From: Candidatus Methanocorpusculum equi
GTDB taxonomy: Archaea > Halobacteriota > Methanomicrobia > Methanomicrobiales > Methanocorpusculaceae
Length of the DNA stretch: 6,260 bases
NCBI GenBank assembly: GCA_018065685.1
Contig: JAGHSU010000034.1
Span: 1 to 6,260, forward strand
Direction of reading: 5' to 3'
Positions 4,706 through 6,172 of this stretch are shown in pieces (the stretch's first letter is position 1; the number at the start of each line of letters is the position of its first letter). The notes beneath the pieces were generated by a model. That model did not search any database. It was not told the origin of the DNA and worked only from the letters and a program-made list of their open reading frames with translations. Position numbers and translations under genes: made by a program.

Positions 4706-4750
4706 TGGGCTGCGGCTTGAAACTGCTGCTGTGGAAAACAAAGAACAAAC

Positions 4751-4879
4751 AAAAGAGCAAATCACCAAACGTGGGTACTCGTGTGTCCCGGGCTACCACC
4801 TCCGGGGCAGTACACACGTTCCGAACTAATTTTAACCAACAAATCCGTTCAGAGAACGAATCAGGTAACGAAGTTACAT
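4751..4879 (-). ncRNA. structured antisense-like RNA, copy 2 (putative antitoxin RNA)
   Basis: Inverted paralogue of 1835-1965, about 129 nt from the conserved ATGTAAC to a T4 run. On the minus strand, hairpin 1 is GTAAC-TTC-GTTAC (4877-4865) and hairpin 2 is CGTTC-TCT-GAACG (4858-4846), one pair longer than in copy 1. Hairpin 3 spans 4820-4768: AACGTG closes with CACGTT, and the upper GCCCCGG faces CCGGGAC. GTTAAAATTAGTTCG (4836-4822) is complementary to CGAACTCATTTTAAC in the copy 2 peptide mRNA at 14 of 15 positions, at the same place in RNA and target as copy 1 but with different bases. The ORF on the opposite strand (4684-4881) is a by-product. Confidence 0.75.
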
Positions 4880-4899
4880 GATATTATTGATTCTAAAAA

Positions 4900-4913
4900 G
4901 AGATAAACCTTTC
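4900..4913 (-). promoter_or_regulatory. promoter of the structured RNA, copy 2
   Basis: On the minus strand GAAAGGTTTATCTC, identical to the copy 1 promoter except the last base, again exactly 30 nt before the conserved ATGTAAC. Confidence 0.72.
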
Positions 4914-4933
4914 CCAACCGGAGCGCAGAACAG

Positions 4934-4962
4934 AAAAGACAACAGGGAAAATCCCTGTTATC
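4934..4962 (-). terminator. terminator hairpin overlapping the copy 2 peptide stop codon
   Basis: On the minus strand GATAACAGGGA (4962-4952) pairs with TCCCTGTTGTC (4948-4938) through one T-G wobble, followed by TTTT. The TAA stop (4960-4958) is in the left arm. Its position matches the copy 1 hairpin, with a different sequence. Confidence 0.82.
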
Positions 4963-5065
4963 TTCTCTTGTTCCTAATCGATCCGATTTCACGCAAAGCG
5001 TGGATTATCTGCAGAATAGCGGATACTGCCGTGCAGATAGTTAAAATGAGTTCGTTAACCGGCAT
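4958..5065 (-). CDS. small hydrophobic membrane peptide (putative type I toxin-like), copy 2
   Basis: A 35-residue ORF reading MPVNELILTICTAVSAILQ, then IIHALREIGSIRNKRR. One predicted membrane segment covers about residues 5-24, followed by a basic tail. It is paralogous to 66-170 (ICT, V, ILQI, H, E and NK/RR conserved; one codon longer near the N-terminus). GGAAGG upstream (5081-5075 on the minus strand) is a plausible ribosome site. The leader is about 80 nt if the TATA at 5169-5179 is used, and contains two hairpins. The stop codon lies within the terminator stem. Its RNA partner follows directly downstream in the same orientation with its own promoter: the intact arrangement that the transposon-like element broke in copy 1. 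The plus-strand ORF at 4878-5177 is antisense and has no such support. Function inferred, not shown. Confidence 0.72.
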   Translation of the reverse strand: MPVNELILTICTAVSAILQIIHALREIGSIRNKRR

Positions 5066-5092
5066 GGGTAGATGCCTTCCTGTATTTTTTCA

Positions 5093-5108
5093 TCCGGTTG
5101 TATCCGGA
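5093..5108 (-). promoter_or_regulatory. leader hairpin upstream of small peptide gene, copy 2
   Basis: On the minus strand TCCGG-ATACAA-CCGGA, ending 27 nt before the start codon. It corresponds to 28-43 with the outer pair changed from C-G to T-A. Confidence 0.5.
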
Positions 5109-5179: not shown

Positions 5180-5215
5180 AATCAATCAAAAACACGATTT
5201 TTTATGAAAAAAGTG

Positions 5216-5241
5216 GTGACAAAATGTCACATTTTTGTCAC
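5216..5241. promoter_or_regulatory. operator-like cluster of TGTCAC half-sites
   Basis: GTGACA-AAA-TGTCAC (5216-5230) is a perfect inverted repeat, and a further direct TGTCAC follows at 5236-5241. It lies about 40 bp upstream of the copy 2 peptide TATA box, between two divergent promoters. This fits a dimeric regulator site; the regulator is unknown. Confidence 0.5.
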
Positions 5242-5299
5242 AATTTATGTATCATGCAGGATGCAGGGGCCCGAAAATCCGGTGTCTGCTGACAAATGT

Positions 5300-5326
5300 G
5301 TGCCAAAAAGATGTACATTTTGGCAC
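5300..5326. promoter_or_regulatory. 27-bp operator-like palindrome
   Basis: GTGCCAAAA (5300-5308) and TTTTGGCAC (5318-5326) are perfect inverted repeats separated by nine bases, about 33 bp upstream of the TATA box at 5359. It could be a regulator site or an RNA hairpin; no T-run follows directly. Confidence 0.5.
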
Positions 5327-5358
5327 GGATTTTTGCGGGAGAAAAGCATAAACCAGAC

Positions 5359-5571: not shown

Positions 5572-6172
5572 ATGGTTATAACAGGGGAAAGGAGTTTTGA
5601 GGAATTACATACTCTGGCACTCACAGCGGCAAGGAATATTCATCTTCAGGACGAAGTTGAGCACGGACGAAGTATAGATAAGTACGGGACGATTAGGAAA
5701 TTTTCCGGAGATAAAGACGGGGTATACATAGACGTCACAGAGGACACACGAATTATTGTTCACAATCATCGCCAGTCAGAGACTGGCTCACGGCTCACGA
5801 TTCGCTGCACTCATCCCTCGCCACCCTCACGAATTTAAAGCCCCGAATACATTTTCAGGATATGATGTTTACAATTTTTTAGCGAACAGACAGTTGTGTG
5901 AATCCATTGTCTGCGGATATGGATATTATTTTTATTTGAAGAGGGGGACGTTTATGAGGAGCCCGATGGAGGTGAAAAACAGCCTGGAAAGACTCTATCA
6001 GGAGGTAATAAGAAAAGTGGGGGATACGTATGCAGCAGATCCTTCAAACCAGCACAAGTCCCTAAAATTCCGGACAAAAGAGCTTAACATACTGTTTGAA
6101 GCCGAGTTTCATAATGAACTGACAAAAGAGCTTGGAAGGAAAGGATTATTATATGGGAGAGTTAAATTATAA
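5572..6172 (+). pseudogene. JAMM/MPN metallopeptidase-like protein, disrupted by a 49-bp insertion
   Basis: The first frame (MVITGERSFEELHTLALTAA and on) stops at 5836-5838 after 88 residues. The second frame, one base forward, is open from before 5830 to TAA 6170-6172. Deleting 49 bp between the TCGCCA repeats at 5769-5774 and 5818-5823 fuses them into a 183-residue protein reading IIVHNHRHPHEFKAPNTFSG at the join. The restored H64-x-H66 ... S79-x-x-D82, with E30 (EHG) upstream, fits the JAMM zinc motif seen in RadC-like and phage head-associated MPN domains (family knowledge; Arg replaces the common Pro after HNH). A YGYYFYLKRG strand follows, then a helical charged C-terminal region (~105-183) that is not recognised. 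Substrate unknown: an isopeptidase or peptidase role is possible. The downstream ORF starts 4 nt after the stop. As sequenced, the product is truncated right after the first metal-binding histidines. Confidence 0.68.
5769..5823. mobile_element. 49-bp insertion flanked by TCGCCA direct repeats
   Basis: TCGCCA at 5769-5774 and 5818-5823 are 49 bp apart. The intervening sequence contains a 7-bp hairpin (GCCAGTC-AGA-GACTGGC, 5771-5787) and is of different composition from the host gene. It is too short to encode anything. A miniature palindromic repeat element or a templated insertion is possible. Confidence 0.6.

Follow-up and report, generated by a model that had tools for sequence, protein, structure and literature searches.

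Predicted type I toxin-antitoxin-like cassettes of Methanocorpusculum with small RNAs matched to their own peptide mRNAs

The question raised by this locus is why the linker of a small predicted RNA should match the start of the peptide gene that lies beside it, and why a paralogous cassette should keep that match at the same place with different bases. The window (the whole stretch of DNA that was analyzed, 6,260 nucleotides) is taken from a contig that forms part of an archaeal draft genome of 1.15 Mb (~71% complete), and a profile scan of its ORFs places ftsY and srp54 on the contig. Two cassettes are present in the window, copy 1 on the plus strand and copy 2 on the minus strand, and their sequences make it quite probable that they are type I toxin-antitoxin-like units in which the RNA would pair across the translation start of its own mRNA and silence no other.

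Each cassette has the same order of elements on one strand, with a leader carrying a CCGG..CCGG hairpin, a start-codon hairpin and an ORF of 34-35 codons, followed 3′ of the ORF by a terminator-like hairpin with a T run, a TATA-like box and a predicted RNA of ~135 nt with three hairpins; the 5′ and 3′ ends given for the RNAs are inferred ends in all cassettes. Copy 2 is intact, and all of its features lie on the minus strand. The mRNA folds place the upstream leader hairpin CCGG..CCGG at 5093-5108, and local folding gives a start-codon hairpin at 5061-5076 (GGCAU-CUACCC-AUGCC) with a loop at 5066-5071 that pairs with the loop of hairpin 3 in the RNA. The peptide ORF, taken from the ORF list, spans 4958-5065 and encodes 35 amino acids (MPVNELILTICTAVSAILQIIHALREIGSIRNKRR) comprising a hydrophobic segment and a basic tail, and a terminator-like hairpin with its T run is seen by eye at 4935-4963. 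A putative TATA-like box (GGGAAAGGTTTATCT) for the RNA gene is located at 4901-4915, and comparison of the upstream regions by eye shows such a box at similar spacing before the RNA gene in all 10 complete cassettes described below. The small RNA is predicted at 4748-4881 by two covariance models, scoring 127.9 bits with R1, which was built from four copies including copy 2, and 27.8 bits (E 0.0024) with R2, which was built without it. Hairpin 3, defined by folds and by the loop pairing, occupies 4769-4819 with the apical loop AGGUGGUAGC at 4792-4801. The linker between hairpins 2 and 3 (4822-4838) is termed the guide on the basis of pairing energies, gapless pairing, shuffles and a position scan, and its target, from pairing energies and gapless pairing, is at 5038-5054 (coding nucleotides 12-28).

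Copy 1 has the same components on the plus strand. An upstream leader hairpin CCCGG..CCGGG (28-43) is apparent in the mRNA fold and the sequence letters, and a start-codon hairpin (53-72) with the loop GAUCACAA at 59-66 is given by the local fold and the loop match. The ORF at 66-170, from the ORF list and the peptide features, encodes a peptide of 34 amino acids (MSSNLVLLICTIVMTILQIVHSICELADRMNKKR), and a terminator-like hairpin with a T run (165-194) and a putative TATA-like box of the RNA gene (1801-1815) are both assigned by eye. The small RNA is predicted at 1833-1968 (ends inferred) by covariance models and pairing energies and scores 33.5 bits with R2, which was built without copy 1. 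Pairing energies and gapless pairing place the guide at 1877-1892 and its target at 76-91 (coding nucleotides 11-26), and hairpin 3 (1895-1946; folds and loop pairing) carries the apical loop AAGUUGUGAC at 1915-1924.

The copy 1 cassette is split by an inserted element of 1587 bp (205-1791, no strand assigned) with 14-bp terminal inverted repeats, lying past the peptide ORF and ahead of the predicted RNA promoter and flanked by a 9-bp target duplication, ACCGGCGAG, at 196-204 and 1792-1800. A relative of the copy 1 cassette in the genome G027 is uninterrupted and lacks the element. The left end of the element reads GGCTTTGCTC(G/C)TTTTT, AAACGAGCA motifs are repeated at both ends, and small ORFs within it (522-1046, 1096-1260 and 1299-1574) have no credible family matches. 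The same relative place is occupied in two cassettes of a second kind (class II, below), G020:C39 (L111, 1634 on) and G021:C3 (L107, minus strand, 1634 on), as judged from the left end only. Two further likenesses between the window and the G027 locus were seen by eye: TGTCAC/GTGACA-like stretches and AAAAAGATGTACATTTTGGCAC lie upstream of copy 2 (window 5211-5335) and of the G027 cassette (L010 1650-1770), and a REP-like stretch around GAATCGTGAGCCGTGAGC and GACTGGCG, common to both genomes, lies near the cassettes (window 5770-5822, L010 1555-1615).

The original prediction for copy 2, that CGAACTCATTTTAAC (5054-5040, minus strand) pairs with GTTAAAATTAGTTCG (4836-4822) at 14 of 15 positions, is borne out when the letters are read directly. 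The register is also as it had been described, with the A of the ATG at 5065 placing position 5054 at coding nucleotide 12 and the copy 1 site starting at nucleotide 11. The longest gapless pairing in copy 2 extends over 17 positions, with 15 Watson-Crick pairs and one G-U pair (mRNA nucleotides 12-28, RNA nucleotides 44-60 from the inferred 5′ end), and that of copy 1 has 15 Watson-Crick pairs in 16 positions (mRNA nucleotides 11-26, RNA nucleotides 45-60). The two copies had been said to cross-pair poorly, and the computed energies agree, with -18.1 and -18.2 kcal/mol for the cognate pairs versus -12.2 and -13.8 kcal/mol for the cross pairs. A search for the 17-nt copy 2 target with up to two mismatches in its own draft (~71% complete) gives no place other than the guide and the cognate peptide gene. 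Copy 2 alone would not be proof because 30 of 2000 guides shuffled by dinucleotide pair equally well with its mRNA; the strength of the pairing case lies in the whole cassette set.

A BLAST search of the family and the order with the RNA as query gives matches only in G000 and G027, with two RNA copies in G027, and covariance models were therefore needed. R1, made from the window's two copies and the two of G027, identifies further copies in G014, G020 and G021 when run over 231 genomes of the order; reading and rescanning of the loci gave two more, and R2 added G022 and one more copy each in G014 and G021. The complete cassettes of this kind (class I) number 10, namely the window's two, G027a, G020a-c, G021b, G021c, G022 and G014d, and are found in six of 25 Methanocorpusculum genomes, many of which are incomplete drafts. 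Credible matches to the RNA models are confined to this one genus among the 231 order genomes searched, and covariance matches in other genera (G184, E 0.6; G200, E 0.39) were too weak to be accepted. A profile of the 10 peptides run over the same genomes returns the same 10 peptides at E ≤1.6e-15 with the next match at 6.6e-4, and the weak peptide matches that other genera of this order gave (E 0.005-0.1), most of them within 105-amino acid frames, were not taken as relatives. The class-level search covered 232 genomes, apparently the same set as for the order, and the search beyond these was an exact-pattern scan. Over the genome collection the pattern of the second sequence group gave eight stretches, six of them in Methanocorpusculum, and those in a Clostridia bin and a WOR-1 bin were set aside as lacking covariance model support. 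Viral contigs gave no matches to pattern one and four to pattern two, and R1 recovered there only a 28-position partial match in L055 (15 bits, E 0.096). None of the Rfam antitoxin families scored above its gathering score in the window; the only match, STnc400 (24.5 bits versus a cut-off of 80), lies at 155-296 on the minus strand, off the RNAs.

Five RNA copies lack a complete adjacent peptide gene: G027b, which is at a contig end, G021a, G014a, G014b and G014c. G014a and G014b are shorter RNAs without a clear guide, and the guide of G021a and G014c has no other target with up to two mismatches in either draft, except for one two-mismatch place in G014. RNA copies without an adjacent class I ORF are seen at L025 676-822 (minus strand), L027 691-832 (plus strand) and L026 725-849 and 1646-1770 (minus strand). 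Such copies are possibly solo antitoxin RNAs.

In all 10 complete cassettes, the eight additional ones together with the window's two, codons 3-9 of the ORF are complementary to the linker that precedes hairpin 3 of the cassette's own RNA, at the same register and over 12-22 gapless positions; the shortest pairing, that of G020c, resumes past a bulge. For a 10 × 10 energy matrix the guide was defined by position, as the 26 nt before hairpin 3, and paired with mRNA positions -30 to +60, the five RNA-only copies being left out. The cognate mean is -22.0 kcal/mol and the noncognate mean -11.3 kcal/mol, the cognate pair is the strongest in nine of the 10 rows and nine of the 10 columns, and the cognate energy sum is reached by none of 200,000 permutations. 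Taken cassette by cassette, 0 to 30 of 2000 shuffled guides match the real pairing. Among cassettes within a genome, all seven cognate pairs (-18.1 to -26.4 kcal/mol) are stronger than all 10 cross pairs (-7.1 to -13.9 kcal/mol). The sole exception in the matrix concerns row G020a and column G022, where the G020a guide gives -20.5 kcal/mol on the G022 mRNA, from the genome of a different species, versus -19.1 kcal/mol on its own, so that specificity is tightest among cassettes sharing a genome.

A scan by position, in which complementarity was computed in 7-nt cells as cognate minus noncognate, ranks the diagonal of the guide first (RNA -22 to -5 before hairpin 3 against mRNA about +9 to +25). 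Its z value is 5.8 for all 10 cassettes and 8.1 for the seven cassettes of the second sequence group. Cells elsewhere reach z values of up to 3.9 and 4.9, respectively, and the guide thus stands out by its run of neighboring cells as well as by its height. In the plain complementarity sum there are other diagonals of similar height, for example RNA -1 to +15 against mRNA +58 to +72, which we take to be conserved sequence meeting conserved sequence; these drop behind the guide once the noncognate pairs are subtracted. Comparison of copy 1 with G027a illustrates where the cassettes differ. The aligned RNA guides are identical at nine of 17 positions, compared with 12 of 13 in hairpin 1 and 43 of 51 in hairpin 3, and the mRNA targets are 58% identical, compared with 90% for the rest of the ORF. 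In the computed ensembles the guide nucleotides are only partly unpaired, with means of 0.25-0.65.

A second contact between the two molecules is suggested by the region from -14 to +9 of the mRNA, which folds as a hairpin in all 10 cassettes with a loop that holds or borders the start codon. The changes in the stem preserve pairing (AGGACA/UGUCUU, AGACA/UGUCU, GGACA/UGUCC and GGCAU/AUGCC). In a control the mean local energy of this hairpin ranks 19th of 128 windows, so its stability alone is not special. Between this loop and the apical loop of hairpin 3, five to six contiguous Watson-Crick pairs can form in all 10 cassettes, for example UCACAA with UUGUGA, UCAUCA with UGAUGA, CUACC with GGUAG and AUACCA with UGGUAU, and similarly in others. 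The pair count is matched by 23 of 100,000 permutations and the energy by 21 of 100,000, or by 519 of 100,000 when the seven distinct loop/leader types are used. The register, which shifts by at least one base, is looser than that of the guide, and the statistical case is weaker too, with a modest scan signal (z about 3). It is likely to be real, although not settled, on these comparisons. The loop-loop contact goes beyond the claims of the original prediction, as do the RNA-only copies and the cross-fit of G020a with G022.

A second peptide family, with SREIRLWYQLLKKK-like tails, was reached through weak peptide-profile matches (L066, L098-L126). From 43 profile matches 22 loci were taken up, two of them without downstream sequence and two missed by the motif filter. 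At E ≤1e-4 these class II peptides occur in seven of the 231 order genomes, all Methanocorpusculum, and a single genome has up to 13 profile matches, some of them weak. The RNA downstream of the class II peptides is another scaffold than that of class I. On eight loci of class II or of a third kind (L090-L097), R2 identifies no RNA at seven and gives a partial match of 13.6 bits (E 0.99) at the eighth.

Among 18 class II loci that were not chosen for pairing, 14 have complementarity of 16-22 nt at one register, formed by RNA positions +81 to +104 after the stop codon and mRNA positions -4 to +19 from a conserved Ile codon. The pairing over the 18 loci is reached by none of 100,000 permutations. 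Per-locus shuffles as good as the real sequence number 0-2 of 100, three of the 14 passing loci being matched by 1-2 of 100. In the matrix of the unselected 18 loci, three of which are near-identical copies, the cognate is the row best in 13 of 18 and the column best in 14 of 18; a matrix result of 12 of 12 applies to loci picked for a high cognate score. Of the four misses, two have the left end of an inserted element behind the ORF, one has a truncated peptide and in one the frame runs on. Three further loci, the two missed by the filter and G020:C54, pair at about the same register, G022C138 weakly (one of 100 shuffles), which brings the total to 17 of 21. The claim that selection maintains cognate-specific pairing is thereby supported by the 10 of 10 class I cassettes, by the position scan and by the second RNA scaffold.

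A match between a leader loop and an RNA loop also co-varies in class II, with 0 of 100,000 permutations as good for 12 cassettes and 10 of 100,000 for nine distinct types; these loops were read by hand from folds, among loci with good guides. By eye, the class II RNA has a CACCTCC-like stretch facing GGAGGTG in the mRNA. Several class II ORFs have a strong GGAGGTG-like stretch and no in-frame AUG, GUG or UUG at the usual distance (for example, L099 1480-1520), and an Ile codon (AUA, AUC or AUU) is at the expected start in six aligned ORFs, the sequences being cut at that codon. A non-AUG start in class II ORFs is a possible reading of these sequences. A third kind of peptide cassette (L094, L096 and L097) has SREIREW-like peptides and, in some, a GCATCYGCGGAGTTGTGACCGC-like hairpin downstream; start-region pairing is clear in one of four loci of this kind, and no pairing is claimed for it.

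The class I peptides of 34-35 amino acids have one hydrophobic stretch and a basic tail in all 10 cassettes, with a best mean Kyte-Doolittle value of 1.3-2.5 for the stretch. In the second sequence group, the segments predicted to lie in the membrane have only moderate hydrophobicity (mean 1.3-2.2). The pN/pS ratio over 15 pairs of six group-B cassettes, a set that leaves out the most divergent member, G020c, is 0.20 for codons 10-34 and 0.47 for codons 2-9, and the ORF thus looks translated, with the target region changing faster. The single hydrophobic stretch and basic tail resemble type I toxins in sequence. Searches of Pfam, NCBIfam, PADLOC and PHROGs with the two window peptides and six of the 10 give no credible toxin match, the best profile match being a PHROG of unknown function (E 0.011). 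Helix covariation in the RNA has a score of 0.288 in the first group, reached by none of 500 shuffles, which supports the fold, and of 0.217 in the second group, reached by 44 of 500, which gives it weak support.

The anatomy of the cassettes, the two matched sites, their co-variation and the weak cross-pairing within genomes are present in the sequences themselves, and we infer transcription, repression and peptide toxicity. A kissing contact would form first, between the apical loop of hairpin 3 and the loop of the mRNA start-codon hairpin, and pairing of the guide with about codons 3-9 would follow. The two contacts lie in antiparallel order on both molecules and together would cover the mRNA from just upstream of the AUG to codon 9, keeping ribosomes off, so that initiation would be blocked. 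Without the RNA the peptide would be released and, once inserted in the membrane, would slow the cell down or kill it. In paralogous cassettes guide and target would drift together, and each RNA would thus guard its own message.

The same pairing and cognate specificity could also belong to a regulatory or stress membrane peptide that is held down by a dedicated RNA and is not a toxin. This is unlikely but deserves weight, as the peptides have no family match to known toxins and their toxicity is itself deduced; however, the multiple paralogues per genome, the patchy presence (six of 25 genomes) and the RNA-only and broken copies would suit an addiction-type module better. It is improbable that the RNA activates translation by opening the start-codon hairpin. 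All 10 mRNAs do have this hairpin, but a complex with the guide on about codons 3-9 and the loop contact up to the AUG would cover the initiation region, and in class II the RNA faces the GGAGGTG of the mRNA. CreTA-like toxin-antitoxin pairs are Cas-dependent and have CRISPR repeats and Cascade genes beside the pair. The fixed scaffold with a variable guide of 15-20 nt might recall such an RNA, one that directs a protein effector (for example, a Cas complex) to a target marked by the match, but the scanned ORFs of the window include no cas-like gene, the match is antisense to the mRNA start and the second contact is loop to loop, which leaves this reading with very little probability. Complementarity without a pairing function, as a product of chance or a leftover of inverted duplication, is almost certainly not the explanation, for although shuffles can equal copy 2 taken singly, the energy matrix, the guide shuffles, the position scan and the class II replication reject it, guide and target diverge together in all 10 cassettes and again beside a second scaffold, and an unselected leftover would decay and lose its match.

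Silencing of a toxin by its own RNA is the preferred reading, and the features of type I systems can be compared with it. Several results weigh against this reading: the peptides match no known toxin family, the loop contact is looser than the guide and its mRNA hairpin is of ordinary stability, five RNA copies have no complete peptide neighbor, the guides are only partly unpaired, four of 18 class II loci miss, and the second sequence group shows moderate hydrophobicity and weak helix covariation. All 10 class I cassettes have a small (<60 amino acids) hydrophobic peptide gene, and antisense complementarity to the mRNA of the putative toxin is present in 10 of 10 class I and 17 of 21 class II loci. 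The closest likeness in organization is with ZorO-OrzO and ZorP-OrzP of Escherichia coli, for which paralogous adjacent sRNAs with 18-19 nt of complementarity are reported to act on the cognate only, via a short variable region (PMC3919570). Shared features are a small hydrophobic peptide (29 amino acids in Zor/Orz), an adjacent separate sRNA gene and cognate-only paralogous pairs; the Zor/Orz systems differ in being bacterial, with divergent genes, pairing in the 5′ UTR and two paralogues (PMC3919570). Unlike Zor/Orz, the Methanocorpusculum cassettes have the peptide and then the RNA on the same strand, pairing at AUG-proximal codons, a predicted loop-loop contact and a series of at least 10 members. 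Ibs-Sib of E. coli, as outlined in PMC4147584, is similar in having several copies per genome and two recognition domains, TRD1 over the coding sequence and TRD2 over the initiation site, but Sib is encoded opposite ibs and its complementarity is automatic. In Methanocorpusculum the RNA gene is elsewhere on the same strand, and the two sites must co-evolve if they are to stay matched. TisB/IstR-1, ShoB/OhsC and DinQ/AgrB also have an RNA gene that is not opposite the toxin gene and is complementary to part of the toxin mRNA, and differ in being bacterial, with divergent genes and a target in a long 5′ UTR (outlined in PMC4147584).

MsoT1/MsoA1 of Microcystis is a type I system from outside the classical phyla that was likewise found via small-peptide features, and is cyanobacterial; the same paper lists type I systems as reported only from Proteobacteria, Firmicutes, Tenericutes and now Cyanobacteria (PMC12390103). 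Among methanogens, sRNA162 of Methanosarcina mazei has two domains and both cis- and trans-encoded mRNA targets, but its named target is a transcription factor mRNA and not a dedicated peptide partner (PMC3510493). A paper on the archaeal antisense transcriptome refers to archaeal systems of type II (PMC6523106). Among the matches listed, no title or abstract opening names a type I system from archaea, in a search with subscription papers and preprints outside its scope.

A broader reading, held somewhat less firmly than that of the window cassettes and still regarded as likely, is that these would be the first type I toxin-antitoxin systems of Archaea. They would form an expanding family of membrane-peptide toxins in Methanocorpusculum, each silenced by a private RNA through a hypervariable guide and a kissing contact at the start-codon hairpin. 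These RNAs would be built on two or more scaffolds that look unrelated, and selection would keep them orthogonal within a genome. The guides would supply ready candidates for orthogonal antisense regulation in archaea. The natural series of matched and mismatched RNA pairs would make directly testable the long-standing question of how toxin-antitoxin specificity changes without killing the host. If the reading is true, the 10 class I cassettes of Methanocorpusculum and its class II loci, of which at least 17 pair, bring RNA-silenced toxins to a second domain of life.
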